Shown here: positions 14,590 to 30,537 of the stretch, in pieces
How the letters are laid out: every line of letters starts with the position of its first letter
Position numbering within the stretch: the stretch's first letter is position 1
Assembly (NCBI GenBank): GCA_021734045.1
Contig: JAIPJR010000029.1
Location: 1 to 31,975 of the forward strand
Direction: 5' to 3'
DNA: 31,975 nucleotides
Source: Fidelibacterota bacterium
Lineage (GTDB): Bacteria; Fidelibacterota; UBA8477
Translations under genes and position numbers: made by a program
Notes under the pieces: model-generated
Database searches by the model: none
What the model was told of the DNA's origin: nothing
What the model saw: only the letters and a program-made list of their open reading frames with translations

Positions 14590-16212
14590 ATGTTTCCCGC
14601 GACCATGCGACGCTATTTTCCTCGTTTCATCTTCATCACGAGCCTTTTTTTTATCTCATCAACACTGTACGCTGAAACCGACTCGCATCACTATTGGGTG
14701 TTTTTCCGCGACAAAGGTCCCCAGGCACTCCAAAAGCCCATTCCCCTGAGTCCGGAAACCAGCCGGCGCATTGCCTTGCGGGGGAGGGACAAGGTCTGGC
14801 AAAATATCCCGGTCTATGAACCGTACGTGGATGAAATAGGTCTGGTGGGTGTGACTATCCGACAGCGCTCCCGGTGGTTCAATGCTGTGAGCGTGTCCAT
14901 TTCTACCCCTGCGGATCTGGATCGCATAAGACAATTGTCCAGTGTGAAAGGAATTCGACCGGTGGCCAGGGCGGGGCGTAAATATCCTCCAGAATTGTCC
15001 GCACCACTGGCACGGATGACAGATTTCAAATACGGTAACTCCCGATTTCAGAACGAATTGTTGAATCTTACGGCCCTGCACGCAGAAGGCTGGAACGGCA
15101 CCGGTGTGAGAATCGGCGTGTTCGATACCGGTTTCTTGTTATCGCACCCGGTATTTCAGCAATTGAATGTGGTCGCTGGTTATGATTTTGTTGCCCACGA
15201 GACCAATTTGGATGGCGTGAGTTCGGGTCATGGTACGGCCTGCCTGGGTTTAATTGCGGGTTACATGCCCGGTGAGTTTATAGGCGCTGCAAATGGGGCT
15301 TCGTTTCTGTTAGCGCGGACGGAAAATGCTACGACCGAAACGCCGGCTGAGGAGGATAACTGGGTCGCGGCCCTGGAGTGGGCGGATGCCCGGGGTGTTG
15401 AAATAATCTCCTCCTCGTTGGCCTATAAGGAATTTGATAATCCGACAGATTCATATCCCACTGACGCCCTGGATGGTGAAACGACGGTTATCACCCAGGC
15501 AACGAATATTGCCGCCCAGCGGGGGATTTTGGTGGTGAATGCCATGGGTAACGAGGGGCCTGATCCCACAACGCTCTGGGCGCCGGCGGACGGAAAACAT
15601 GTGCTGAGTGTGGGCGGAATTAATCAGGACTATTCTGCTTATGCGCAGGGCAGTCGCGGCCCCACCGCCGATGGCCGCATCAAGCCGGACGTGGTGACGC
15701 TGGCTACGACAGTATTTTTACCGTCCCAGGGTGGTGGGTATTATTACAGTTCGGGAACTTCTTTTGCCACGCCCATGATCGCTGGAGGGGCGGCGTTGGT
15801 GCTGCAGGCGCGCCCGGATTTACCACCTGATAGTGTTATTGCCTTGTTTCGTGCCGCCGGAGATCGATGGACATCACCGGATAATACATTCGGTTGGGGG
15901 GTACCCAATGTGCGCGCCATTATTGCTCGGCTTACGGCCGATACCGGTGATGAAGTCTCAACCAGGGTTTTTCCCAATCCGGTGAGTACAACGCCATTCT
16001 CAGTAAAATTGAGCCGGAACCGGGCGCCCATTTTGGAAACCTATCGCGTGTATAATCTGCGTGGTCAATTGGTGGGTGAAGGAAACCCACGGGTCACGAA
16101 TATCAATGAATTCAGGATCAACCACCTCCCGGAGCTTGCCGCCGGACTTTACTTTATCATTGCTGAAACAGCCACAGAAACGTTTCGGGCAAAATTCGTC
16201 TATCTTCCCTAA
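14590..16212 (+). CDS. Secreted S8 subtilisin-like protease with T9SS sorting domain
   Basis: The 540-residue protein has a signal peptide (about 7-28), a propeptide-like region (about 30-150), and a subtilase domain. Its triad is complete: Asp179 (GVFDTG), His214 (GHGTACLG) and Ser391 (SGTSFATPM), with oxyanion Asn321 (GNEG). The last ~80 residues, from VFPNPVSTTPF to GLYFIIAE...KFVYLP, form a type A T9SS C-terminal domain. The protease should therefore be exported through the type IX system and anchored or released at the surface. Translation may begin at ATG 14590 or ATG 14605; neither has a clear ribosome site. The gene sits 11 bases after tnaA, probably in the same transcript, linking extracellular proteolysis with tryptophan breakdown. 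Confidence 0.93.
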   Translation: MFPATMRRYFPRFIFITSLFFISSTLYAETDSHHYWVFFRDKGPQALQKPIPLSPETSRRIALRGRDKVWQNIPVYEPYVDEIGLVGVTIRQRSRWFNAVSVSISTPADLDRIRQLSSVKGIRPVARAGRKYPPELSAPLARMTDFKYGNSRFQNELLNLTALHAEGWNGTGVRIGVFDTGFLLSHPVFQQLNVVAGYDFVAHETNLDGVSSGHGTACLGLIAGYMPGEFIGAANGASFLLARTENATTETPAEEDNWVAALEWADARGVEIISSSLAYKEFDNPTDSYPTDALDGETTVITQATNIAAQRGILVVNAMGNEGPDPTTLWAPADGKHVLSVGGINQDYSAYAQGSRGPTADGRIKPDVVTLATTVFLPSQGGGYYYSSGTSFATPMIAGGAALVLQARPDLPPDSVIALFRAAGDRWTSPDNTFGWGVPNVRAIIARLTADTGDEVSTRVFPNPVSTTPFSVKLSRNRAPILETYRVYNLRGQLVGEGNPRVTNINEFRINHLPELAAGLYFIIAETATETFRAKFVYLP

Positions 16213-16979: not shown

Positions 16980-17008
16980 TTGACAAGGTTTTTCAGTACA
17001 TCTATATT
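16980..17008 (+). promoter_or_regulatory. Strong predicted promoter of the Mot/FliF/FliG operon
   Basis: A perfect -35 TTGACA (16980-16985) and TATATT (17003-17008) are separated by exactly 17 bases. It is the best sigma70-type match in the window and faces the eight-gene operon starting at 17090. It leaves a leader of roughly 75 nt. No flagellar sigma54 or sigma28 signature is apparent. Confidence 0.7.
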
Positions 17009-17089
17009 CCCGAAAGGCAAAGACGACTGTGCAGGGCAGTCATGCCGTTTGGACAACTAAATAGCATACAAGCCGAGTAAGGGGCGAAG
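17009..17089 (+). other. Structured 5' leader with two competing hairpins
   Basis: GGCA (17016-17019) pairs with TGCC (17043-17046) around an inner stem GACTG (17025-17029) with CAGTC (17037-17041) and a 7-base loop. An alternative stem ATGC (17042-17045) with GCAT further downstream would exclude it. This looks like a switchable leader. GGCAAA is shared with the start of c-di-GMP-I (GEMM) riboswitches, but the GACGCAAAGC core is absent, so I do not call it one. A GGGG stretch lies just before the ATG. Confidence 0.35.
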
Positions 17090-18073
17090 ATGAAGCGTCT
17101 TCAGCTGACTACCATTGTATCGGTGACATTCTGCTTAATCTTGGCAGGTTGTTTCTCGAAATCGGCGTCAGAGATTGATGCTACCGGCGATGAAAAACTC
17201 CCGGCATCAATCACCAGTACGCCCGATGATTCCAATCTTGATACGCCATCAAGGAATCCCGGAGTAGCATCACAGACTGGTGCCAGAACGGTTCTGCCTG
17301 GAAATGCCCGGCCGGCCACTGGTGGGAAGCAGAGTGCGGACTTTGTATTGGAAGAGTTAAACTTTGAGCTGAAAAAACTGACCGCAGAGGTGAAACACCT
17401 GCAGTCCCAGGTTTCGGAGCTCCAGAGCAAGAGCGAGGTTTGGCTCAACCCTTTAAGTATCTACAGCAAGGAAGTGCACCTGTCCAACGGCTCCCGTATG
17501 TATGGTGACATTCTTGATCAGGATGATCAGACCATCCGGATTAAAACGCTTATCGGGGTTCTGTCAATCGACCGCAGCCAAGTGGTTCGAATTGTGGACA
17601 ACACACCCACTCAGGCACCTGAGACGGTTCCTCAAAGCCAACTCGCCGAGGAATTTCCGCCACCACCCGGCCGTCCAGGTATTGCCGGCGCAGATATCCA
17701 CACGCCCACAGCGCAATCAGCCAGCGTGGGAAGCGTTAGCCAGGATCTGCAGGCCAATCCGGTGTTATCCGGCACCATTAAAGAACGGAAAGATCGTAGC
17801 GGGAATACCATTCTCTCCGGCACGATTAAAAATATTGGCGGGAAACGTGCCGATTTTATCAAGGTCAATTTTGTTTTTCGGATGAACTGGAGTGGCGACA
17901 CCAAAGAACTGACGGCATTTGTGAAGGGATCGCACCACACATTTAAAAGCGGCGTAACCACGGATACCTCACTATATCCCGGCGCCAGCGGAAGTTTCGA
18001 ACTCTACATTCCTAAATCATTCGGTAATTTCATCGGGTACTCCTACTCCATTGCATGGGAAGAATATGAATAG
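17090..18073 (+). CDS. Lipoprotein with short coiled coil and C-terminal FxLYD-like domain
   Basis: The first gene of the motor operon encodes a 327-residue lipoprotein (lipobox LAGC, Cys21). A low-complexity Ser/Thr/Pro region (25-80) leads to a coiled coil (about 84-115, LEELNFELKKLTAEVKHLQS). Next is a compact beta segment, SNGSRMYGDILDQDDQTIRI (about 131-150), continuing to VVRIVD, with the look of a small Sm/SH3-like barrel. After a proline-rich linker the last ~110 residues resemble an FxLYD-type beta sandwich (LSGTIKNIGGKRADFIKVNFVF). I do not recognise a named family for the whole protein. It overlaps the next gene by 8 bases, so the two are translationally coupled. A periplasmic or outer-membrane anchoring role is inference from the operon. 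Confidence 0.8.
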   Translation: MKRLQLTTIVSVTFCLILAGCFSKSASEIDATGDEKLPASITSTPDDSNLDTPSRNPGVASQTGARTVLPGNARPATGGKQSADFVLEELNFELKKLTAEVKHLQSQVSELQSKSEVWLNPLSIYSKEVHLSNGSRMYGDILDQDDQTIRIKTLIGVLSIDRSQVVRIVDNTPTQAPETVPQSQLAEEFPPPPGRPGIAGADIHTPTAQSASVGSVSQDLQANPVLSGTIKERKDRSGNTILSGTIKNIGGKRADFIKVNFVFRMNWSGDTKELTAFVKGSHHTFKSGVTTDTSLYPGASGSFELYIPKSFGNFIGYSYSIAWEEYE

Positions 18074-19022
18074 ACATTGGACAATAACACTAACGCTTAC
18101 ACTTGCGCTGGGACTCACCACACTCTTTTTCTCCGGCTGCTCCAGTACCAAACCGGCCGAGCCTGATCCGATTCAACAGGAATTACTGACACAACTCAAG
18201 TCGCTGGGTGGTGAAATAGGTAAACTACAAGCCACGCAGGACGAACTGCTGGAGATGCGGCAAAATCTGACGCAGATGGATTCCCAGTTGGTTATTTACC
18301 AGAACACCTTGGCTGAAAAGGAAAAAGACAGCAAAGCCAAAGACTCGGAAATCTTGGAATTGCGGGGAAATATTGACATCCTGAGCAGTGAAATCCAAAG
18401 TTTGCGCGTGGTGGTTGACACATTAAGAATGGCCAAAGACTCGCTGGATTTCCGGCTCCAGAGATTAACAGAAGAGATTCTGCCCAAACTGGAACAGAAA
18501 ACGGTGGTGGTGCAGAAGGAGGCGCAAGCCGACTCTGCGCAAACCGCAGAAATGCCGGCACAAGACACACCGGACAAAACGAAACCAGCGGAAGCGGGTG
18601 CGGCGCCCTCGGAGCCAGCGAAACCGGTCAAAACCACATTAACTGCCCGGGAATATCGGCGTCAGTATAATGCCGCTTTAAATAAGTATTTCCAAAGGGA
18701 CTACGTTTCCGCCATTAAATTATTCAATGAGCTCATCAATCTCTGGCCGGATGGGACTTATGCCGATAATTGTCAATATTGGATTGGAGAATGCTATTAT
18801 TCCCTGGAAAACTACCAGCAGGCCATTGAGGAATTTTCCAAAGTAAGTGCGTTTCCGGAAAATAATAAAGCCGATCACGCATTATTTAAAATCGGCATGT
18901 GCTACCTTCAGCTTGGCAACAAAACAGAGGCGGAAACGCTTTTCCATCAGGTGATGGATAAATATCCCGAAAGCGATATGATACCCCGTGTGAAGGAGTA
19001 CTTTGCAGGGAAGAAGATGTAA
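18066..19022 (+). CDS. YbgF/CpoB-like coiled-coil TPR lipoprotein
   Basis: The 318-residue protein has a lipoprotein signal ending FFSGC (Cys25). A long coiled coil follows (about 35-145), then an Ala/Pro/Glu-rich linker (146-195) and about three tetratricopeptide repeats (197-318), including YNAALNKYFQRDYVSAIKLF and YADNCQYWIGECYYSLENYQ. The layout is that of YbgF/CpoB, the periplasmic partner of Tol-Pal, but without Tol genes. I chose ATG 18066, which lies inside the preceding stop region and gives a proper signal. A TTG at 18051 would add five residues. GGGAAG lies just upstream. Its place ahead of MotA/MotB suggests it links the motor to peptidoglycan or the outer membrane. Confidence 0.85.
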   Translation: MNRHWTITLTLTLALGLTTLFFSGCSSTKPAEPDPIQQELLTQLKSLGGEIGKLQATQDELLEMRQNLTQMDSQLVIYQNTLAEKEKDSKAKDSEILELRGNIDILSSEIQSLRVVVDTLRMAKDSLDFRLQRLTEEILPKLEQKTVVVQKEAQADSAQTAEMPAQDTPDKTKPAEAGAAPSEPAKPVKTTLTAREYRRQYNAALNKYFQRDYVSAIKLFNELINLWPDGTYADNCQYWIGECYYSLENYQQAIEEFSKVSAFPENNKADHALFKIGMCYLQLGNKTEAETLFHQVMDKYPESDMIPRVKEYFAGKKM

Positions 19023-19031
19023 GCAGGAACC

Positions 19032-20042
19032 ATGCACCGGCAGTGGTTTAAATATGGAATAATCATATCCCTCATGATGACAGGACTACAAGCGCAAACC
19101 ACCGATCAGGGCAAATTGCTCTATGACTTGGGTATTTTTATCCAGGACACGGTTCCCACGCCAGTGGATAGCGTCACGCTGGAGACTCAGGCAGACACAC
19201 TGCCGGCGGAGGTTCCGTCGAGGGAACAAATTGATATTCAGCATGAGCAAGCTCCGGCTCCAAAAACCAAATCACTCCCCCGGGAGGAAGACATCCCCTT
19301 GCGCGGTGGTGATATGGACTTATACCAGTTGGTGATGGATTACCAAATTCGAGTAGCCCGGATGGAGCTTGAAATCGCCAAACTATACCGCTCTATCGAC
19401 AGCTTAAAAACTTTTATCGCGGAACAGGGCGCCGGTTACCGCACCGATCTGGCCGTTCTGGAAAAACAGAATCGCCTGTTGGGTGAAAAGGTGTCGGAAC
19501 TGGAGCGCTTGAGGGATTCAGCGACACAGACGGATCTGCCGGAAAATGCACTGTCGTCTACGGTGACACCCGCTGACAGTATTTGGCTGGAAACCGCCCC
19601 AATTTCACCTCAGATGGTTGCCAGCCTCCAGTCCCATCCCGACAGCCCCAACCGCAGTGAAGAGGACATTTACCGGGACGCTCTGACGAAATACCACCGC
19701 CAGTCCTACCTGTCCGCCCTGGATGACTTTAAGCGACTGACCGCCTACGGAAAAAACGAACGACTGAAAGCCAGCGCCCAGTATTACGCCGGTGCCTGCT
19801 ATTATGCGGTAGGGCTTTTAATTCCGGCTGATCAGGAACTCACCCGGGTTACCCAATATCCGGATTCAGATAAGCTGGATGATGCCCTGGCGTTACGGGG
19901 GATTCTGTACGAAGGTCAGGGGCGCCTGCCGGAAGCCCGGGCGGTGTTTGAGAGTCTGGTACGACAATATCCAAACAGCGAGTATGTCACAGTGGCCACT
20001 CGCTTTTTACAGCGTGCGCGGAAATTATCGCAGCATGAATAA
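19032..20042 (+). CDS. Secreted coiled-coil/TPR protein, YbgF-like
   Basis: The 336-residue product has a signal peptide (about 1-22, ending LQAQ) without a lipobox, so it should be soluble in the periplasm. After a variable segment comes a coiled coil (about 96-160, DYQIRVARMELEIAKLYRSI). Tetratricopeptide repeats occupy about 215-330 (YRDALTKYHRQSYLSALDDF, AQYYAGACYYAVGLLIPADQ, ALRGILYEGQGRLPEARAVF). The architecture parallels the preceding lipoprotein and suggests the two are diverged paralogues or partners. It starts nine bases after the previous stop. The function is not known; a structural role in the same envelope complex is inferred from the operon. Confidence 0.8.
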   Translation: MHRQWFKYGIIISLMMTGLQAQTTDQGKLLYDLGIFIQDTVPTPVDSVTLETQADTLPAEVPSREQIDIQHEQAPAPKTKSLPREEDIPLRGGDMDLYQLVMDYQIRVARMELEIAKLYRSIDSLKTFIAEQGAGYRTDLAVLEKQNRLLGEKVSELERLRDSATQTDLPENALSSTVTPADSIWLETAPISPQMVASLQSHPDSPNRSEEDIYRDALTKYHRQSYLSALDDFKRLTAYGKNERLKASAQYYAGACYYAVGLLIPADQELTRVTQYPDSDKLDDALALRGILYEGQGRLPEARAVFESLVRQYPNSEYVTVATRFLQRARKLSQHE

Positions 20043-20055
20043 TGGGAATGGTTGC

Positions 20056-21525
20056 ATGCGATACTTAAAAAAACCTAGTCAGATGTTGATCCTTTTACTG
20101 GCGGGATTGATGATGTCCGCCAGCGGACAGACACAGCTTAGTTTCTCCCGTCCGGGATTGATGATGAATATCCCCACCACGAGCCTGTACCCCTATCCCT
20201 ATCTATTAAGGGTGGGCATCGGGACGCAATATCTGGGGAAAACGGCTGCGGCAACCCAGAGCACTCAGGTCTGGAACCGGGGGCTCTATCTGGAAACCGA
20301 CATTACCCGTTCCTTTCGCCTGGGAATTTCCACGGTACAGCAATCCAATTCGACCGCACCGACCCAACTGGCGCTCCATGTACAGGACCGGTTGCTCACC
20401 TATGGCGAAGCAGCCATCGGCGTGGGGGTGTCAGACATCGTTTTTGATTTGAATTCGGGCGGCAATAACGAAAGTGTCTCCGAGCAGGTGCGGAATTTAT
20501 CCTACTACATGCTCATCAGCCGGGAGAATAGTTTTTCTGAATACAATCTCAAGACCTACCTGGGTGTTGGGACCGGCCGGTATGGCATTAATTTTGGGAA
20601 AACAGTCTTAGACTCAAGCCTCACCGATGTTTACACTGACTTGAACAGCAATGGCATTTGGGATTCAGGCGAGGCCATCCTAACGGACTACAACAATAAT
20701 GGCTTCGTTGATACGGTTTTCACGGATATGGCCAACTCCTTTGGTATTTTTATCGGCATGCTGCTGAACACCAATATCATGGCTGAGCGCGGCGGGATGG
20801 ATTTTATGGTGGAATGGGACGGCAGTTCGGTGAATATGGGACTGCGCATTCCCCTCACTCTGGAATACAAAGTGAATCTGGCCTTCTCCAACATGCAGAA
20901 TATCCCCAATTTCGGTGATGCCACAGCGGAGAAACCCCCGGCGATCACTGTGGGGCTGGATTATTTCCTGCCGCGCGTGAAAAAGCAGGCCACCCGGGGC
21001 CGCGGTCTGGCGGTTGAAGGGGTCGTGACAGAAGATGGTATTCCGGTTCGAACGGTAATCGACTCTGCCTGGCATAAAGCCCAGGAAAACCAGATTATTC
21101 TGCTACAGGACTCCCTGCGCATGACGGCGGCGGAAATCGAACAATTGAACCGGATGGTGGAGCAACTGGAGCAACGCAACAAGGTTTTGGAAGATTCCAT
21201 CGCCACCATGAAGCTGGCCCAGCATGTCTCACAAGCCCGTGTAAATCAGGCATTAAAACATTTATCACGCTCCCTCAGGTTGTTCTATAACGAAGAATAC
21301 CCGGAAGCGCTGGCAGAGGTTAACAGAGCGTTGGAATTGAATCCCAATCTGGCCTTGGCGTACGCCCGCCGGGGATCCATATATTACAAAATGGGACAAC
21401 TGGACCGGGCGACAATTAACTGGAATCTGGCACTGCAGATCGATCCGGGCTACGATGATGTTCGGAATATCTTACGGGCATTAAACGAAAACCGTCTCCG
21501 CACAACAACCACATTCAGAGACTAA
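20056..21525 (+). CDS. Outer-membrane-like beta protein with C-terminal coiled coil and TPRs
   Basis: The 489-residue product begins with a signal peptide (about 1-24). Residues 25-310 are rich in alternating strands, as in outer-membrane barrels. Two acidic calcium-loop-like motifs lie at about 194-216 (DLNSNGIWDSGE and DYNNNGFVDT). A coiled coil follows (about 340-385, QENQIILLQDSLRMTAAEIE), then TPRs (about 395-475, LFYNEEYPEALAEVNRALEL and YARRGSIYYKMGQLDRA). I chose ATG 20056 for its basic N-terminus and signal. ATG 20035 would overlap the preceding gene, and the open frame runs further upstream by chance. The barrel-plus-TPR layout would let it join the outer membrane to the motor proteins encoded next. 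Confidence 0.78.
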   Translation: MRYLKKPSQMLILLLAGLMMSASGQTQLSFSRPGLMMNIPTTSLYPYPYLLRVGIGTQYLGKTAAATQSTQVWNRGLYLETDITRSFRLGISTVQQSNSTAPTQLALHVQDRLLTYGEAAIGVGVSDIVFDLNSGGNNESVSEQVRNLSYYMLISRENSFSEYNLKTYLGVGTGRYGINFGKTVLDSSLTDVYTDLNSNGIWDSGEAILTDYNNNGFVDTVFTDMANSFGIFIGMLLNTNIMAERGGMDFMVEWDGSSVNMGLRIPLTLEYKVNLAFSNMQNIPNFGDATAEKPPAITVGLDYFLPRVKKQATRGRGLAVEGVVTEDGIPVRTVIDSAWHKAQENQIILLQDSLRMTAAEIEQLNRMVEQLEQRNKVLEDSIATMKLAQHVSQARVNQALKHLSRSLRLFYNEEYPEALAEVNRALELNPNLALAYARRGSIYYKMGQLDRATINWNLALQIDPGYDDVRNILRALNENRLRTTTTFRD

Positions 21526-21538
21526 AACGAGGCCATAA

Positions 21539-22354
21539 ATGGATATTGCAACAATTATTGGAATTCTTCTGGGCGTAGGTTTGGTGGGCACTGCCATGGT
21601 GCAGGCCACCGTGAACCTTTCCGGTGGTATTCTGACCTTCGTTGAGCCCGCATCACTCATGATTGTGCTGGGTGGAACCATTGCCGCAACAGCGATAGCC
21701 TTCCCGCTGGCCGAAGTTTTACGCCTGGTGGCAAATCTGAAGGCGGTTTTTTCTGGTGAAAAGGTTAAAAATGCCCTGATTCTGGAAGAGATTGTTGAGA
21801 TGGCAGCCGTAGCCCGCAAGGGAACCGCTGATCTGGAAAAATCGCTGGGTGATGCCAAAACACCCTTTTTCAAAGATGGCCTTCAAATGATTGTAGACGG
21901 TCTGGCGGAGGAGGATATCCGGTATATTCTGGAAACTCGTGTTGATAATCGGGCTTTGCGGGAGCAAGCGGAAGCTAATGTATTTCGCACCATGGGAACC
22001 ATGGCACCGGCCTTTGGTATGGTGGGAACCCTGGTGGGTTTGGTGGCGATGTTATATGGTATGGCGCAGGCTTCCTCCGGTGGTGGTGGTGCAGGCAAGG
22101 ATCCGGCCGCAGCGCTGGGGCAGGCCATGGGTTTGGCGTTGATTACCACACTCTATGGCGCACTGTTCGCTAACCTGTTGTTTAATCCTATCGCCACAAA
22201 ACTCAAATCCAGAATTGAGAAACGCAATATTTCGCAGAATATGATTATTGAAGGTGTCGTTCTGTTAAAGAAGAAAAAACACCCGTTATTGGTGCGCGAG
22301 CACTTGAACTCATTCCTGCCGCCCAAAGAATGGAAGCGGGAAGAATTGACTTAA
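21539..22354 (+). CDS. motA: MotA/PomA stator subunit
   Basis: The 271-residue inner-membrane protein forms, with MotB, an ion channel that turns ion flow into torque. It has four membrane segments (about 4-24, 32-54, 152-174, 196-218). The large cytoplasmic loop carries the charged ARKGTADLE stretch (Arg93, Glu100) that contacts FliG in flagellar motors. Conserved prolines are Pro157 and Pro217. The transmembrane motifs GMVGTLVGLVAML and ALITTLYGA match Vibrio PomA almost residue for residue, including the threonines typical of sodium-driven stators. A glycine-rich insert (about 179-190) extends the TM3-TM4 loop. It starts 13 bases after the previous gene. This is a true MotA rather than the shorter TolQ/ExbB type. 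Confidence 0.95.
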   Translation: MDIATIIGILLGVGLVGTAMVQATVNLSGGILTFVEPASLMIVLGGTIAATAIAFPLAEVLRLVANLKAVFSGEKVKNALILEEIVEMAAVARKGTADLEKSLGDAKTPFFKDGLQMIVDGLAEEDIRYILETRVDNRALREQAEANVFRTMGTMAPAFGMVGTLVGLVAMLYGMAQASSGGGGAGKDPAAALGQAMGLALITTLYGALFANLLFNPIATKLKSRIEKRNISQNMIIEGVVLLKKKKHPLLVREHLNSFLPPKEWKREELT

Positions 22355-22408
22355 CGGGATTCAAGAGAGACTTGAAATGAGACCGTACCCGGGACGAAAA
22401 GAAAGCAT

Positions 22409-23089
22409 ATGTCTGAAGTAGCAGCAAAAAAACAGAGCCAAGCCCGCAAATCCAGTGCGCTGAAAGATGAAGGTACGGCAGGCGAGGAATGGCTCACGAC
22501 CTTTGCGGATATGATGACGCTGCTCATGACCTTTTTTGTGCTACTTTTTTCCATGTCAACCATTGACCCGGTGAAATTACAGCAATTCGGCGAATCCCTG
22601 GGCACCCAGGAAGGTTCCACCAGGCCTTCGGAAAAATTGGTCTCGTTAAGCGAGATTTCCAGGGATATTCAGCAGGTTATTGCCCAGGAACAACTGGGGT
22701 CTATGGTGCAGGTCAGCTTGACTTCCCGCGGTGTGACCATGGGGATTGCCAGCGATTTGGCGTTTGGGGTGGGAAGTGCAGATTTGTCGAATCAAATTCA
22801 GGACTTTTTATCCCGGCTCATTCCCACGATGAAGCAGGCAACCTATAACATCGCTGTGGAAGGGCATACCGATAATGTGCCCATTCGATCCTCTCGATTT
22901 CCATCAAACTGGGAACTGTCTGCCTCCCGGGCCAGTGCGGTAATCCGATTTTTGGTCGAAGAGGGCGTGGCAGCAGATAAATTACGGGCGATTGGCTATG
23001 GCGATACCCGGCCGAAAGCCAGTAACGAAACAGATGCCGGGCGCTCGAAAAACCGGCGCGTTGACATAACATTTTTATCGATCGGCTAA
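22409..23089 (+). CDS. motB: MotB/PomB stator subunit with OmpA-like peptidoglycan-binding domain
   Basis: The 226-residue partner of MotA has a basic cytoplasmic N-terminus and a single membrane helix (about 28-49, WLTTFADMMTLLMTFFVLLF). Asp34 is the ion-carrying residue. A linker (50-95) follows, then an OmpA-like domain (about 100-225) with the peptidoglycan-binding motifs GHTDNVPI (152-159), NWELSASRA (167-175) and NRRVDI (215-220). The domain should fix the stator to the cell wall. There is no strong ribosome site, only AAAAGAAAG upstream. The stop codon overlaps an ATG of the next frame, but the next gene probably starts 30 bases later. Confidence 0.95.
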   Translation: MSEVAAKKQSQARKSSALKDEGTAGEEWLTTFADMMTLLMTFFVLLFSMSTIDPVKLQQFGESLGTQEGSTRPSEKLVSLSEISRDIQQVIAQEQLGSMVQVSLTSRGVTMGIASDLAFGVGSADLSNQIQDFLSRLIPTMKQATYNIAVEGHTDNVPIRSSRFPSNWELSASRASAVIRFLVEEGVAADKLRAIGYGDTRPKASNETDAGRSKNRRVDITFLSIG

Positions 23090-23106
23090 TGGAATTGGTT
23101 GGAAGC

Positions 23107-23112
23107 AAGGAG
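23107..23112 (+). promoter_or_regulatory. Shine-Dalgarno deciding the FliF-like start
   Basis: AAGGAG lies six bases before ATG 23119. It supports that start over ATG 23089, which overlaps the motB stop and would place ten extra residues before the basic signal sequence. Confidence 0.7.
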
Positions 23113-23118
23113 CGACCT

Positions 23119-25107
23119 ATGAAACATCCAGCGCGGAAATGGCTTTTCGGAGTGATTGCCGGCAGCATGCTGGTGGGCATGACACTGCTGGCGCAATCTG
23201 AAGCCGCAGAAAATTTCTACGCTCAGAAAATCATGCTGGAGAATACCATTCGGCATCGAATTTCAGATGCGATTTTCAAAATCACGGATAACGACCGGTT
23301 CGTTGTTGATGTGAAGGTGTTCATGGATGTCCAACCCGGGCAGTCATTTCAGACCGAGTACGTTCCTGAACCGCCAGCCGATAGCCGGCGTCGTTCTACC
23401 GGGAAAAAACCGACCACTACCCACCCGGAACCCCGTACCACCACACCCACATTGGACTCAAACGGTGCTCCCGGAAATGCGGTTAGTCCAAAACCGGATC
23501 AGACCGGCGGAATTCCTGCAAAAGAATCCGCTCCAACAGAAACCCGGTTAGACGAAATTTTGCCGGGCATTCCCGGTGTACAGCGCCCTCGTTCTGACCT
23601 GTTTAGCCCGGCGGAAACACCCGCTCCTCAACCAACGGCTGACAATACGCCGGTTTCTGCACCGGAAGTAGACGAAATGGCTGGTGCTGCAGAGGATTCG
23701 TTACCGGATGCCGCCTCAGAACCGGCTGAACCACTACCGGAAGAGACCGTGGTTGCAGAAGAGACTATTCCCTACGAGGAAACCACTCCGGAAGCAACGA
23801 AACCGCCGCGCATCCGTCGTCACACGGTAGCGACTACATCGATTCCCCGGGTTTCGGTTGATCATGTGGAGATCACCGTCATTCTGGAAGATCAGGTGAG
23901 CCCGTCGGTAGTTGAAAATATCCGCCAGGTAGCCATGGTGGCAGCCCATTTTGATCGCTCCCGTGGTGATGTCATGAATATTATGACCGCCTCTTTCAAG
24001 GATAATCAAAAGCAAAAAACCGACGCGGAACAGGTTTTACTGAAATCCATCGCCGAACGCATGGCTCTGATCGAACAGCAACAAAAAGCAAAAGCTGAGG
24101 ATGAGAAGGCGAAAACGCTGGCGGCTGAGCAGGATAAGCTGCAGAAAGAGCGGGAAGAGTTGGCCAGAATTCGCCAACAAGAAGAAGAGCGTTTAAAACA
24201 ACGCGAGGCGGAATTGAAAAAACAGCGGGAAGATGAGCAGCAAAGAATCGCCCAGCGGGAAGATGAGCTCCGGCGGGAACGTCAGGCCGAGCAGGAGCGA
24301 CTGGCCACGGAGCGGGAACGATTATTTGAGCAGCAGCGTGAACAAGCACAGGCACAGCTGAAAGCCGATTCCCTGCGAATCGCCTTGCTGGAAAATCAGC
24401 TACAGGAGCTCCAGGTCCAGCTAAAGAGCAATGATATGGAAGAGGAGCGCAAGCTCCAGCTGGAACTGGAACAGCGTAAAAAAGAGCAGGAACGCTCCAA
24501 GTTGGTTGAAGAGCAGGAATCGCTGAATAAGAAATTACTGGAAATGCAGCAAAAAACCCTGGAAACGCCGCCGGCAGCGGCCAGCGTTGACAACACCAAT
24601 TTGTATTTAATCCTGGGCGGTGCGGCGCTTCTGATTCTGTTACTGGGGTTGGTTTTTGCGGCGATGAACCGGCGACCGCAAACACCGGTCTATCCGGAAT
24701 ATCCGCCGGCTGGAAAATGGTCTTCGGATGACGAACGGATTGATAAGGCCGCTGAAAAAGCAGCGTTACAGGCGGAAAAGCGACTGAAAGATCTCTTGCA
24801 AACTCAACGCGATCTCAACAGTGAGCCCGAATCCAAAACACCCCCACCGGAAAAAATGACGGAGGAATCTTTGTCCAGCGCGGCCACCGGCGGCGCAACA
24901 CAAATGACCTACCGCCGTCAACCGGTCCGGTCGGATGATGCGGCTCGATCCGAAATGGATGATGTGCGGAAATCAGTGGTTTCACTGGCGATTGGACGCC
25001 CTCAATCCGCATCGCGCATTATCAGTAACTGGCTGGGTGACAGCGGTGGCTCTACTACCGAAAGCGCTACAACAAGTGAGGCTGGCAGTGAAGAAAACCA
25101 AGATTAA
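23119..25107 (+). CDS. FliF-like MS-ring protein lacking RBM1/2, with long coiled coil
   Basis: The 662-residue protein has an N-terminal membrane or signal segment (8-25). A first half of a FliF RBM3-like domain follows (about 31-72, ENFYAQKIMLENTIRHRISD...FVVDVKVFMDV). Next come a 170-residue Pro/Thr/Glu-rich insert (73-245) and the second half of RBM3 (about 246-295, VDHVEITVILE...VAAHFDRSRGDVMNIMTASF), which matches the FliF_C pattern ending in RGD. Residues 300-480 are a charged coiled coil. A second membrane helix (494-516) and a cytoplasmic tail complete it. The tail's DVRKSVVSLAIGRPQSASRI...NWL (about 615-638) resembles the FliG-binding end of FliF. RBM1 and RBM2 are missing. By topology the coiled coil is periplasmic. 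The fliG gene follows. The homology call is from motif pattern; a ring structure is inference. Confidence 0.8.
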   Translation: MKHPARKWLFGVIAGSMLVGMTLLAQSEAAENFYAQKIMLENTIRHRISDAIFKITDNDRFVVDVKVFMDVQPGQSFQTEYVPEPPADSRRRSTGKKPTTTHPEPRTTTPTLDSNGAPGNAVSPKPDQTGGIPAKESAPTETRLDEILPGIPGVQRPRSDLFSPAETPAPQPTADNTPVSAPEVDEMAGAAEDSLPDAASEPAEPLPEETVVAEETIPYEETTPEATKPPRIRRHTVATTSIPRVSVDHVEITVILEDQVSPSVVENIRQVAMVAAHFDRSRGDVMNIMTASFKDNQKQKTDAEQVLLKSIAERMALIEQQQKAKAEDEKAKTLAAEQDKLQKEREELARIRQQEEERLKQREAELKKQREDEQQRIAQREDELRRERQAEQERLATERERLFEQQREQAQAQLKADSLRIALLENQLQELQVQLKSNDMEEERKLQLELEQRKKEQERSKLVEEQESLNKKLLEMQQKTLETPPAAASVDNTNLYLILGGAALLILLLGLVFAAMNRRPQTPVYPEYPPAGKWSSDDERIDKAAEKAALQAEKRLKDLLQTQRDLNSEPESKTPPPEKMTEESLSSAATGGATQMTYRRQPVRSDDAARSEMDDVRKSVVSLAIGRPQSASRIISNWLGDSGGSTTESATTSEAGSEENQD

Positions 25108-25156
25108 TAAAAGCAACCCCACAGACCAGCCGGCTAACGAGCGAAAGGGTCCGGTT

Positions 25157-26092
25157 ATGGCAGAAGAAAAACCGCAACTCAATGGACTTGATAAAGTTGC
25201 CGTTCTCTTCAAAATTCTGGGGACCCCTCTGGCGGTCTCATTATTCAAGGATTTGAAAGAGAATGACTTGTTAGCGATTCAGCAGCGCACCCAAAGTTTG
25301 GGGGAGGTGGACTTCAAAACCAAACGCCTGGTTTTGGAGGAATTTTACTTCAGTTTCGTTTCGGAGAAACTGAAGGCCGAGGATAAAACCGAAGCCAAAA
25401 AACACCCTTTCGCGTTTCTCAATGACCTGACCGAGTTGCAGTTGACCTATCTGCTGCGCCAGGAACCGGAACGCAGTCAGGCTATTATTTTAGCCCAATT
25501 ACCGGAAGACAAACAATTCCACCTTATCAAATCCATGTCACCAGAACAACGCGCCAATGTGTTGGTGGAGATGGGCAAAATTGAGGAAATTCCGTTTGAG
25601 GCCATTTTGGATTTTGCGTCGGACCTGAAGAATAAAGCCCGCTCCATTCCGTCCCATGCCGAATATGAAAAGGGCGGCAGTGCCGCACTGGCAAAGCTGT
25701 TAGGGAAGCTGGACACGCGCGAGCAACGGGAGTTCCTGGATTTCATTAATGATGAAGCCCCCGACCTGGCCGAAGAGGTCCGCAAGGTTCACTTCACCTT
25801 TGATTCTGTCCCCTTGCTGCCGGACAGCATATTGCGGGATGTGTTCAATTCCGTGGATCTGGATGTGGTTGCGCTGGCGCTGAAAGGTCAGGATAAGGAA
25901 TTTGTGGATCGCATCATCAACAACCTTCCCCAGAAAAAGCAGGCCATGTTTGAACCCAGGGAAGGGCCGGTCGCACGAAAATTGGTGGAGAGCGCCCAAA
26001 AGCAAGTGGTGGACCAGATCGTTGCAATGGACCACAATCCTGATAACGATTTCCGCTTAGAAGATTATCTGGAGTCTGATTTTATCGAATAA
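25157..26092 (+). CDS. fliG: FliG-like rotor protein
   Basis: The 311-residue cytoplasmic protein spans all FliG domains. FliG-N (about 8-68, LDKVAVLFKILGTPLAVSLF) would bind FliF. FliG-M (about 84-155) has EPER (103-106) where flagellar FliG has EHPQ. The GG hinge is at 173-174, and FliG-C (about 188-311) reads EEVRKVHFTFDSVPLLPDSI...VALALKGQ. In the torque helix only one of the paired aspartates (LLPDS) is kept, and the arginine expected a few residues on is replaced. ATG 25157 follows AAAGGG and gives the standard N-terminus. The frame is open further upstream within the FliF-like gene by chance. It is the last gene of the operon and converges on upp. No fliH, fliI, fliM or fliN follows. 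Confidence 0.92.
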   Translation: MAEEKPQLNGLDKVAVLFKILGTPLAVSLFKDLKENDLLAIQQRTQSLGEVDFKTKRLVLEEFYFSFVSEKLKAEDKTEAKKHPFAFLNDLTELQLTYLLRQEPERSQAIILAQLPEDKQFHLIKSMSPEQRANVLVEMGKIEEIPFEAILDFASDLKNKARSIPSHAEYEKGGSAALAKLLGKLDTREQREFLDFINDEAPDLAEEVRKVHFTFDSVPLLPDSILRDVFNSVDLDVVALALKGQDKEFVDRIINNLPQKKQAMFEPREGPVARKLVESAQKQVVDQIVAMDHNPDNDFRLEDYLESDFIE

Positions 26093-26147
26093 GGAATGCG
26101 GTAGATAAACGGACTTCAGCAAACTGCTGTCCTGCACAAGCGAGATG

Positions 26148-26185
26148 GAGAGGGAGACTCAACCCGCCCGGGTTGGCTCCCTCTC
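26148..26185. terminator. Hairpin between convergent fliG and upp
   Basis: GAGAGGGAG (26148-26156) pairs with CTCCCTCTC (26177-26185). A second stem CAACCC (26160-26165) with GGGTTG (26170-26175) is nested inside. The double stem lies between converging operons and could stop transcription from both sides. A U-tract is missing on the + strand. Confidence 0.65.
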
Positions 26186-26916: not shown

Positions 26917-29900
26917 TTAACGCCGGAAGGGCTGGCTGCGATGCTGTAATTTCAAATCCTTCAATTGTGATGCATCCACCTGAATCAGTAAATAATAGCC
27001 GGCAGCGTAACCTGATGGCCGCCAGGTGAATTTTAATGACCAGCAGTGCAAGTCCCGGGTAACGCGCACATCATGACTCACCAATTCCCGCTGAACCAGG
27101 TCAAAACGGGCATTATAGGAGAGTTTCCAGAATTTCGTCAGGTTAAGGCGGGTTTGGGTATTCACCCAGAAGTTCTTATTGACCGGCCGAAAAGGATCGG
27201 CCTGACTGTAGGAGTAATTGAAAGAGAAATTGGAGTCCCATAAATTTCCTGATCCCGAGCCCAACGTGCGATTCTCAAAACGCGAGTCCAGAAAAGCATC
27301 CTCCTGGAACGTGGTATCAGCGGTATCGACACGCGCTACTGTGGTCTTGCTTTTGAACGCAAAGCCAAACCCCACCGAAGCGGAGGTAAGCCGGGGTGAA
27401 CGCAGGCGATTCACAAGATGACTGTTGGTTGTATTTCCGGGAATGGAATCCCGCTCATAAATCTCAAACCTGGCCGAGTAATTCAGGCTCCCCAATTTTC
27501 CCAACCGGAGTACGCCATTATTATTTATCTCCGACGCACGCAGGGAATCTTTCGCCATATTATAAGAGCCGCTCATCTGCCAGGTAAAAAGCTGTCCCTT
27601 CGTCTCCCGGGGGTCAGCATCCGGTGTTTCACCGAGTTGTATTAACTTATAATCGAACTCATTTTTCAGGCTCCAGTTCAGATTAAAGGTCTCATTGGCA
27701 GGCGTGGCGCCGATGCTGGAATAGCGGTAAGGATCGAAGGTAACTGTTGCGCCAGCGCTATCAGGATAGGACTGCACATACCCCCAGAATGACCGGGAAA
27801 AATCGGGGGCATAACGGAGACCAATATTGGGGGTTAGCTTATGGCGGATGGCATTCAAGGGCCCAAGGTTCAGGGGAAATAGTCCGTAAAGGGTAGTATT
27901 CAGGTTTACGCCGGTGGAAAACGTGCCGCGCCGGAGAAATCCTTCTACCGGATCCCGTAAAACCACGCCGTTGGAATCGGTTTGAATAATGCCATTGTCC
28001 GTGCGCGCTTGCTCGTACCGAAATGCCCAGTTATCCCGGTAACTCACATTGCCGGATGCGGTGAGTATACCGAAAAGGGATGTGGCGCCGGTTAATGCCA
28101 TGGAATGGTCCATGGACTGGGTAGATTCAGTCTCTTTCCGCCAATCCAGGGTAGAATCATTCACAGCGTAAGATTCGTAGTCGGTAGTGGTTGTATTGTT
28201 AAACCGGGTGGAATAGTTCCACAGCAGTTTGTTGTACCACTCTTCCTGCTGTCCGGATTTGGATGGGAAGAGGTTGCTGCTGCTATGGCTGAAACTGAAC
28301 GACGGTAGATTCAGCGTCGATTCCCGCAGTCGGGTCCCCGCCGATGTGGGCGATGATAGAACCACCTGCCCAACCTGGAGATTGCGGGTGTAACCCAGAT
28401 TGGCGCTCATGCTGTTTTTGGTGCCCTCAAACCGTTTGTTCAGGGTCAGGTTGGACTGGAGGTTTTTCTGAAGACGGGCATCCTGTTCCTGATAATAATC
28501 CTGCCCGAAATTGGCATCTCCCGTGAGACGACCTGACCCGCGGATGGACATGGTGGGATCAACGGTATGGTTATGGTTGAAAGCCAGGTCCCAGCGATAG
28601 GTCCCGCTTTGTCCCGATCGGTCTGGCGTAAGCGAGCCGCTAATGGTGCCGTCTAAAATGTAGCGTAATTTGTACCGGAAGCGTCCCCGATAGAGGAAAT
28701 CTTCATAGCGGTCATAGAAATCAACCACCAATTTGGCGTCCATGTAGTCGCTGATTGCCCAATAATACCCCAACCCTTTCAGCGAACGACCTTCACTGAT
28801 TTTGTAATCATAACCCGGCATGAGAAAACCGGAGCGCCGTCCTTTCTGCTGAGGAAAAACGGCGAAAGGGAGTATCGCCAGAGGCACATCAGCGATATAC
28901 AGCACCACTGGCTTTGCAATCACCAGCTTATCGGTGATGAGCTTCATGCGCTTGCTGTAGAAATAATAATGGGGATGATCCGGGATATCGCAGGTGGTGT
29001 AATAGCCATCGTGGACATGATACACATCCGAACGGATACGCTGCATATCCTGACCATAATAATAACCTTCGTCGATTTCTGTTCTTCCGGCCACGACCTG
29101 TCCCCGATCCTGGCGCATGTTATACACCATTCGCTTTCCCACCAGGGGTTTCTGTCCCATCTGCTCTAATCGGGGATAGTCTTCCGCATTCATTGTATCG
29201 GTCTGACTGCGGGCGGTGAGGAGATTCTGTCGCCAGTCCACATCAATTTCTCCCGCCACCAATGACATATCCTCGTAGTACACACTGGCACCGGTGAGCA
29301 AAAAGGTACGCTCCTGGGGAATATTGTACCGGATAACCTCTGCCTTGTAGGTAATGTCATCTTCCAGATCACTGTTGGCAGCCGGCGTATATGTGCCCTC
29401 ACTGCCTCCCACCACATGAATCTCATTTACCTCATCATTTTGCATGAAAATGGTCAGCGTATCACCGCTCACCACATTCAGCCCCCGGTAAACTGAGTCC
29501 TCCACGGCATGGAATTTGGATGTGGCCATTCCCACCAATATCACCTGCTGTACCTTATTGTCCACCAGGTCAACACCCATCTCTTTTCCCGTGAGGCGAT
29601 CCACAAATGCCGTGTCAGGCAGGAATTTATTTCCCATAAACGAGGGGTTTTTTGGAATAAAAACGGAGCGGAGTTCATCATTTTCCAGATTCAACTGAAT
29701 CACGTCGCCCCGCAGAATATAGTCCCCTTCAATGAGAACGGGATCTTCCTTCAGAATGGCGTAATTATCAACGCGCTGTAAAACCGCCTGCCCTGCCGAG
29801 CCGCGCACCTCCTGATGCGAAATTCGCACATTTCCCCAGGCGAAAAAGTAATCGGACTCCACCGACAACGAATCAGCAGCGATGGAAAATATTTCTTTCC

Positions 29901-30537
29901 CCAATGAATCCAGCCGGGTCACTTGCGGGTCACCTGACGCCAGCAACGAATCGTTGTCCGGATAAAACTGAAGTCGTCCTCCGGTAATATTTACACGGTT
30001 AATGTGGTCATAAAGCTCAGCCTCACCAATGGCATAGCCGTAGCGATCATTTTCAAAAAAGGTCACATTGTGCGCCGTCAGTGTGCGGGTGGAATCCATC
30101 ATCACGGGCTGACCACCGGCCGTGACGATTTTCTTGTTCATCTGGTAATTAATGCGCTGGGCCGTGACCCGTTGGTCCCTGTGGCGATAGCGGGCATTTC
30201 CCGTGAGTTTAAGGATTTCCGTGTCACGATGATATACACCGTTTTCGCTGGTGAGCACGGCTTCACCCTGAACGACCCGCACATTTCCATTCAAACGCGT
30301 CTCGTTCTGCCGCTCATCAAATTCCGCCAGATCGCAGGTGAGAATCGCCTGCCCGCGTTTGAATTTCACCTCACCTACCAGCCGTTTCACGGTAACGCCA
30401 TTCCGGGTGATATTCTCCAGAGTCCGGGCATTAAGAAGCTCAAGGCGATTGCTTTCCTGGGCGTTAACCGGTATCCACAGCAATTGTGCCGCAAGTAAGA
30501 ACAGTAGTGAGCGATAACGTCGGTAAAAACGGGTCAT
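26917..30537 (-). CDS. lptD: LPS-assembly protein LptD with extended OstA region
   Basis: LptD is the outer-membrane barrel that inserts lipopolysaccharide into the outer leaflet. The 1206-residue protein is longer than E. coli LptD (784). A signal peptide (about 1-27) leads to several OstA/LptA-like repeats over about 30-520 (LEGEV-type strands such as LVGEVKFKRGQAILTCDLAEF and LTGNARYRHRDQRVTAQRIN). These form a long periplasmic beta-jellyroll. The LptD core begins near 530 with TTCDIPDHPHYYFYSKRMKL and PVVLYIADVPLAILPFAVFP followed by GRRSGFLMPGYDY. The remaining ~600 residues are barrel strands. This large form is typical of Bacteroidota and relatives. rarA ends 11 bases upstream. The fused OstA part may replace a separate LptA. 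Confidence 0.9.
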   Translation of the reverse strand: MTRFYRRYRSLLFLLAAQLLWIPVNAQESNRLELLNARTLENITRNGVTVKRLVGEVKFKRGQAILTCDLAEFDERQNETRLNGNVRVVQGEAVLTSENGVYHRDTEILKLTGNARYRHRDQRVTAQRINYQMNKKIVTAGGQPVMMDSTRTLTAHNVTFFENDRYGYAIGEAELYDHINRVNITGGRLQFYPDNDSLLASGDPQVTRLDSLGKEIFSIAADSLSVESDYFFAWGNVRISHQEVRGSAGQAVLQRVDNYAILKEDPVLIEGDYILRGDVIQLNLENDELRSVFIPKNPSFMGNKFLPDTAFVDRLTGKEMGVDLVDNKVQQVILVGMATSKFHAVEDSVYRGLNVVSGDTLTIFMQNDEVNEIHVVGGSEGTYTPAANSDLEDDITYKAEVIRYNIPQERTFLLTGASVYYEDMSLVAGEIDVDWRQNLLTARSQTDTMNAEDYPRLEQMGQKPLVGKRMVYNMRQDRGQVVAGRTEIDEGYYYGQDMQRIRSDVYHVHDGYYTTCDIPDHPHYYFYSKRMKLITDKLVIAKPVVLYIADVPLAILPFAVFPQQKGRRSGFLMPGYDYKISEGRSLKGLGYYWAISDYMDAKLVVDFYDRYEDFLYRGRFRYKLRYILDGTISGSLTPDRSGQSGTYRWDLAFNHNHTVDPTMSIRGSGRLTGDANFGQDYYQEQDARLQKNLQSNLTLNKRFEGTKNSMSANLGYTRNLQVGQVVLSSPTSAGTRLRESTLNLPSFSFSHSSSNLFPSKSGQQEEWYNKLLWNYSTRFNNTTTTDYESYAVNDSTLDWRKETESTQSMDHSMALTGATSLFGILTASGNVSYRDNWAFRYEQARTDNGIIQTDSNGVVLRDPVEGFLRRGTFSTGVNLNTTLYGLFPLNLGPLNAIRHKLTPNIGLRYAPDFSRSFWGYVQSYPDSAGATVTFDPYRYSSIGATPANETFNLNWSLKNEFDYKLIQLGETPDADPRETKGQLFTWQMSGSYNMAKDSLRASEINNNGVLRLGKLGSLNYSARFEIYERDSIPGNTTNSHLVNRLRSPRLTSASVGFGFAFKSKTTVARVDTADTTFQEDAFLDSRFENRTLGSGSGNLWDSNFSFNYSYSQADPFRPVNKNFWVNTQTRLNLTKFWKLSYNARFDLVQRELVSHDVRVTRDLHCWSLKFTWRPSGYAAGYYLLIQVDASQLKDLKLQHRSQPFRR

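Follow-up and report, generated by a model that had tools for sequence, protein, structure and literature searches.

FliF and FliG are known as parts of the flagellum. To our knowledge, there is no FliF or FliG ring in the Agl-Glt gliding machinery of Myxococcus, and no FliG in the GldLM system of Bacteroidota, which serves type IX secretion (T9SS). The path of flagellar torque runs through MotA/B, FliG and FliF (PMC11087270), while Agl-Glt combines an ion-driven, MotAB-like motor with trans-envelope partners, and GldLM, a rotary 5:2 motor that pushes outer-membrane-associated parts, is described as non-homologous to MotAB (PMC13104615). A 2026 review of gliding makes no mention of FliG (PMC13104615), a 2025 survey of MotAB and its homologues outside the flagellum names it a single time, as the flagellar partner, and in the open-access literature we found neither a non-flagellar FliF-FliG machine nor any description of the operon considered here. 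This operon occupies positions 17090-26092 of a stretch of 31,975 nucleotides (hereafter the window) from a Fidelibacterota bacterium (assembly GCA_021734045.1, contig JAIPJR010000029.1, positions 1 to 31,975 of the forward strand), whose genome belongs to the phylum Neomarinimicrobiota (SAR406), also called Fidelibacterota (PMC11652737). An earlier note on this DNA had described eight head-to-tail genes, and all eight are confirmed on the same strand, closely packed or overlapping; their products are two lipoproteins (g1 and g2), a tetratricopeptide repeat (TPR) protein (g3), an outer-membrane barrel with TPRs (g4), MotA, MotB, a FliF remnant and a divergent FliG (FliG2). We consider it likely that the operon encodes an ion-driven rotary motor which exports no protein and is coupled to the outer membrane, whether it is derived from the flagellar motor or sister to it. 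With the flagellar motor it shares a homologous stator, in which the residues for ion binding and for the torque interface are intact, the N, M and C domains of FliG, and the RBM3/collar region, second transmembrane helix (TM2) and FliG-binding tail of FliF. It differs in that its FliF-like protein is without TM1, RBM1 and RBM2, its FliG2 is without the EHPQR motif, FlhA and FliM/FliN were not found in its genome, and the motor is linked to lipoproteins, TPR proteins and an outer-membrane barrel.

Stator and rotor proteins

Four recognisable flagellar motor parts had been claimed for the operon, and the claim holds: MotA, MotB and FliG are identified by Pfam, and the FliF-like protein is firm once relatives are included. 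MotA matches MotA_ExbB (4.7e-25), and MotB matches both MotB_plug (2.6e-20) and OmpA (4.3e-20). In E. coli numbering, Arg90, Pro173, Thr209 and Pro222 of MotA are conserved in 100/100 sequences and Glu98 in 99/100, and Asp32 of MotB is conserved in 94/94. The features of a flagellar-type (FIT) stator are accordingly all found, namely MotB Asp32, MotA Arg90, Glu98, Pro173 and Pro222, the plug and the OmpA domain. The same genome carries other motor genes: on contig C10 (L161:623-2226) lies a second MotA-MotB-like pair, a putative pseudo-stator or regulator in which Ser replaces Asp32 of MotB and the torque residues of MotA are kept, and contigs C13 and C17 (L158 and L159) hold two ExbB/ExbD-type motors, one of them adjoining a large TPR protein.

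The FliF-like protein of the window, taken alone, matches YscJ_FliF_C below the Pfam threshold (E 0.0018), and the corresponding protein of one relative (L044) matches FliF above the cut-off (E 4.5e-7). When a FliF profile was built from E. coli FliF and the flagellar FliF proteins of the phylum, the FliF-like relatives matched it with a best E of 1.1e-16 in co-linear pieces (~235-289, 401-441 and 437-550 of 552), which reach residue 549-550 and never include the first 227. Over the RBM3/collar region, hhalign gives 96.5% and 8.8e-10, and the closest solved sequences are FliF. A predicted model of a short relative (L039) has a mean predicted local distance difference test score (pLDDT) of 69.8, with RBM3 parts above 90 and a poorly modelled collar insert; its residues 26-225 align to residues 228-438 of Salmonella FliF (Z 14.6), fifteen FliF entries lead the ranking, and the next unrelated fold follows at Z 9.0. 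Residues 228-438 of FliF form the RBM3/collar region (PMC10198558). The C-terminal motif VRKSVVSLAIGRPQSASRIISNWLGD, the predicted FliG-binding site, contains a Trp that is invariant among 59 aligned relatives, and three features of the FliF family, the RBM3/beta-collar, TM2 and the C-terminal FliG-binding tail, are thus present. TM1, RBM1 and RBM2 were not found, as hidden Markov model (HMM) matches to FliF begin at residue ~228, and a signal peptide appears to take their place. The protein is therefore remodelled, as the earlier note had held, and keeps one half of FliF only. In the flagellum, RBM1 and RBM2 surround the export gate. Since this gate is located inside the MS-ring (PMC11481574), the lost half of FliF is plausibly the secretion half.

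FliG2 of the window retains FliG_C (2e-22), FliG_N (3.7e-13) and FliG_M (3.2e-8) by Pfam. The EHPQ motif occurs in 0/84 distinct FliG2 proteins, as against 19 of 20 flagellar FliG proteins of the phylum, and EHPQR is the FliM-binding site of FliG (PMC6290876). Lys264 is kept in all 84, and position 281 is Lys or Arg, for the flagellar Arg281, in all 84 as well. In a phylogenetic tree, FliG2 forms one clade (support 99/99), separate from flagellar FliG; the placement of the fusion proteins described below is unsafe in this tree, as their branches are long.

Two relatives encode natural fusions of FliF-like and FliG sequences. That of genome G035 (locus L063) has 466 residues and consists of a signal peptide, a weakly RBM3-like stretch, one transmembrane helix and the FliG M/C domains, and MotA and MotB follow it; that of G026, of 509 residues, is laid out alike, and two coiled-coil/TPR proteins come after it. 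The FliG domains of both are identified with certainty (3e-21 and 3e-25). In Salmonella, FliF-FliG fusions made by engineering assemble into rings and are functional (PMC11481574), and the two natural fusions argue that the FliF-like protein and FliG2 work as one rotor. In G035, the fusion, MotA and MotB end an exopolysaccharide-export operon with two response regulators (L063:181-16866), a locus in which a large secreted protein is encoded as well. Downstream of this fusion locus, at L184:3808-5292, lies a gene for a protein of 494 residues with a FadL/PorV-like barrel, a coiled coil and a TPR tail, i.e., the layout of g4 with a different barrel.

Gene order, the flagellum and rival explanations

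Forty regions around divergent FliG genes of relatives were compared. The order g1, one or two CpoB-like genes, g4, motA, motB, fliF-like, fliG recurs in 38 of them, across ~28 families, which rules out chance. Clustering of the proteins of these 38 loci, some of which are cut by contig ends, places MotB, the FliF-like protein and FliG in 38, g4 and MotA in 37, g1 in 32 and g2/g3 in 30, and the most frequent flanking gene in just 9; the conserved unit thus comprises these genes and no others. With g4 as marker, it is found in 104 of 149 genomes of the phylum, roughly 70%, a count that leaves out one weak TPR-only match in G035. It is absent from 45, among them each of the 12 genomes sampled from the streamlined family f7. 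When named genomes were scanned with the g4 alignment, 151 loci were obtained, and the best 80 of the 151 came from records labelled Neomarinimicrobiota, Marinimicrobia, FCB group or plain 'bacterium'; the operon is likely restricted to the phylum. Several flagellated genomes have no g4 match (G016, G038, G046, G077, G089 and G117, and also G073, which has a short fliG match), and the four sampled genomes of family f13 (G038, G046, G077 and G089) all appear to be without the operon.

Among the 149 genomes, FlhA was convincingly found in 33, FliM/N in 31 and the N-terminal domain of FliF in 33. As regards INDEPENDENCE from the flagellum, operon and FlhA occur together in 26 genomes, FlhA alone in 7, the operon alone in 78 and neither in 38, so that operon and flagellar export are statistically independent (Fisher p 0.28). 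The genome of the window (2.54 Mb in 119 contigs, 92% complete) yielded no FlhA (FHIPEP), no FliM/N (PF01052), no FliF N-terminal domain (PF01514) and no canonical FliG. That export, switch, rod and filament genes are missing, as had been stated, is thereby extended to the whole genome for FlhA and FliM/FliN, while rod, hook and flagellin genes are absent from the eight genes, the range over which they were sought. The occurrence of the operon without flagellar export genes, which the earlier note had named as support, is seen in the 78 genomes above; flagellated relatives, including two of the same genus (G020 and G057), carry a separate canonical FliG and a full-length FliF elsewhere, and in none of the 38 loci do the operon genes sit inside an ordinary flagellar cluster. 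Because flagellar genes lie in clusters, those of this genome could all be on a contig that is missing from the assembly, and the conclusion rests on the phylum. It is hardly credible that the operon belongs to an ordinary flagellum whose remaining genes fall in the unassembled 8%: G020 and G057 do have flagella, but they carry the operon in addition to full fliF and fliG genes, 78 genomes have the operon without FlhA, and missing contigs would not make the operon part of a flagellum. Equally little probability attaches to a degenerating, functionless flagellar remnant, to which the shortened FliF, the lost FliG motifs and the patchy distribution of flagella across the phylum might point; such a vestigial flagellum is contradicted by the coexistence of the operon with complete, separate flagella in 26 genomes, by the FliG2 clade apart from flagellar FliG, with synteny over ~28 families, and by the catalytic stator residues, which are kept in essentially all members.

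Two further explanations concern the use of a functional motor. As an envelope energiser, it would replace Tol-Pal, its torque pulling CpoB-like TPR proteins in division or lipid transport. Tol-Pal with CpoB/YbgF likewise combines a stator-type motor, a CpoB-like TPR protein and outer-membrane partners; g2 exceeds the YbgF/CpoB cut-off of TIGR02795 (98.6 bits against 90.1), the operon is common in the phylum and is probably carried by an isolate described as non-motile, and TolB_N was matched weakly at most (best 4.6e-6), in 17 of the 149 genomes, and not at all in the genome of the window. Tol-Pal differs, however, in being without a FliG or FliF rotor, TPR domains of the YbgF type are found in many other, unrelated systems, and 45 genomes are without the operon, including the 12 of f7, which have no TolB matches either. 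So ready a loss would not be expected of a housekeeping system of the envelope, and we regard this role as unlikely. Still more doubtful is a secretion motor, in which the operon would take over from GldLM in powering type IX secretion or surface presentation that depends on SprA. SprA is found in 144 of 149 genomes, SAR406 genomes encode many proteins with Por sorting domains (PMC5596340), and the operon adjoins an S8 peptidase gene (window 14590-16212) whose type A T9SS sorting domain exceeds the cut-off. Yet SprA also occurs in genomes without the operon, e.g., in f7 and in genus g17 of f6, and the lack of GldM matches with TIGR03517 or PF12081 comes from searches that had no working positive control, so that the absence of GldM is not shown. 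A Zorya defence system was also considered and rejected: MotB resembles ZorB (1.9e-24), but as a general MotB relative, as is expected of any MotB, MotA has no ZorA match, and a FliF/FliG rotor is no part of Zorya. Apart from this likeness and a weak coiled-coil match between the FliF-like protein and LmuB, no Zorya effector or defence protein was matched among the proteins tested.

Envelope proteins, coordinates and expression signals

The four genes ahead of the stator encode the envelope proteins of the operon. For g1, which matched no Pfam family, the position at the operon head is kept among the loci of relatives. The two lipoproteins proposed earlier each carry a lipobox. A model of g4, computed on the protein of a relative (pLDDT 80.9), shows a barrel of 12 strands, then a long helix and the TPRs, in agreement with the outer-membrane-like beta/TPR protein that had been predicted; its Foldseek matches are the porins OmpG, FapF and NanC as well as TPR proteins, and conservation is highest in the TPR part. 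One weak GltC match of g2 (1.7e-4) is explained by TPRs.

Table 1. Features of the operon in window coordinates; gene starts are the likely ones, and that of the fliF-like gene is 23089 or 23119.
Feature	Position	Strand	Evidence
Sigma70-like promoter, TTGACA-17-TATATT, upstream of operon	16980..17008	+	11/12 consensus match
g1, lipoprotein, 327 aa: coiled coil and C-terminal beta-rich part	17090..18073	+	lipobox LAGC
g2, lipoprotein: coiled coil and CpoB/YbgF-like TPR domain	18066..19022	+	lipobox FSGC
g3, exported coiled-coil and CpoB-like TPR protein	19032..20042	+	TPR_6 1.7e-7; TIGR02795 9e-13
g4, outer-membrane barrel, periplasmic helix, C-terminal TPRs	20056..21525	+	predicted model, Foldseek
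MotA, stator subunit; R93 and E100 equivalent to E. coli R90 and E98	21539..22354	+	Pfam, alignment
MotB, stator subunit: ion-binding Asp D34 (E. coli D32), plug, OmpA peptidoglycan domain	22409..23089	+	Pfam, alignment
FliF-like rotor protein: signal peptide, RBM3 split by variable insert, coiled coil, one transmembrane helix, FliG-binding tail	23089..25107	+	HMM, hhalign, fold
RBM3 parts: first 23224-23331, second 23857-23997, collar insert between	23224..23997	+	HMM, hhalign
Single transmembrane helix, TM2 equivalent	24598..24666	+	sequence; co-linear FliF HMM match in relatives
C-terminal FliG-binding motif VRKSVVSLAIGRPQSASRIISNWLGD (predicted)	24964..25041	+	alignment, FliF HMM
FliG2: FliG_N, FliG_M, FliG_C; EPERS instead of EHPQR; altered torque helix	25157..26092	+	Pfam, alignment, tree
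Hairpin 3' of fliG, without T tract	~26148..26185	+	folding energy

The single strong promoter and the terminal hairpin of the earlier note stand in part. The promoter is the best match of its region, but it is a consensus match alone, and sigma70-like sites are not in excess over the whole region (11 observed against 8.0 +/- 2.7 expected). The hairpin is stable, its folded stretch reaching -32.1 kcal/mol (z -3.8), but it lacks a T tract. Downstream of the operon, on the opposite strand at 26917-30537, lies a gene for an LptD-like protein of 1206 residues with an OstA domain.

Proposed machine and its meaning

In the rotary motor that we favour, ion flow would turn the MotA pentamer against FliG2, and torque would pass through FliG2 and the FliF tail to a periplasmic ring, in an order borrowed from the flagellar motor. 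The ring would contact the lipoproteins with their TPRs and coiled coils and, in the outer membrane, the barrel-TPR protein; the motor may thereby load the outer membrane and move a component of that membrane or of the cell surface. The use that we tentatively place first, although we would not call it probable, is gliding-type surface motility or surface transport; it is favoured by the outer-membrane parts, by the setting of the G035 variant among exopolysaccharide and surface-protein genes, and by the absence of the operon from the 12 f7 genomes. Of the gliding, transport or envelope machine of the earlier note, the motor operon independent of the flagellum is supported, and gliding, secretion and envelope roles are all candidate functions. 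The analogy with Agl-Glt that accompanied it holds as a mechanical likeness and does not extend to the rotor, as Agl-Glt is not known to have FliF or FliG; moreover, the AglRQS motors travel along tracks, a comparison made from the literature only.

Several observations weigh against the proposed machine. The torque-helix pair D288 D289 is deleted in 73 of the 84 FliG2 proteins, including that of the window (DE is kept in the other 11), and Arg297 is replaced in 83. Judging from these residues, the contact between FliG2 and the stator must be altered; the stator of the operon is intact, with the MotA and MotB residues kept, yet the rotor surface that faces it is altered, with the acidic pair deleted and Arg297 replaced. 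The contacts of the FliF-like protein with FliG2, and of the ring with the TPR proteins, are ones that we infer. In both natural fusions, the evidence for RBM3 is weak, and the type B sorting domain of the secreted protein at the G035 locus is below threshold (21.9 against 35). Finally, Fidelibacter multiformis IA91, the only isolate of the phylum, is described as non-motile (PMC11652737), a description that may not cover surface movement, and IA91 is probably G017, a genome with the full operon.

On balance, we lean towards regarding the operon as a class of trans-envelope machine characteristic of Neomarinimicrobiota, in which a rotor and stator without the secretion half of FliF drive a ring that moves outer-membrane or surface parts, and which would be the first FliF-FliG motor outside the flagellum. 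Such a machine would be new as a system, with parts that are of known families; on a stricter view it could count as a variant of the rotary motor driven by MotAB. A conserved motor with the torque half of FliF but not the half associated with export would show that rotation can be uncoupled from secretion, a point of direct relevance to the origin of the flagellum and to the ways in which it can be taken apart. If this is true, the operon would add a new class to the few ion-driven motors of the envelope (flagellar, Tol, Ton, GldLM, Agl and Zorya), and would provide a testable machine for a globally abundant ocean phylum with one described isolate.

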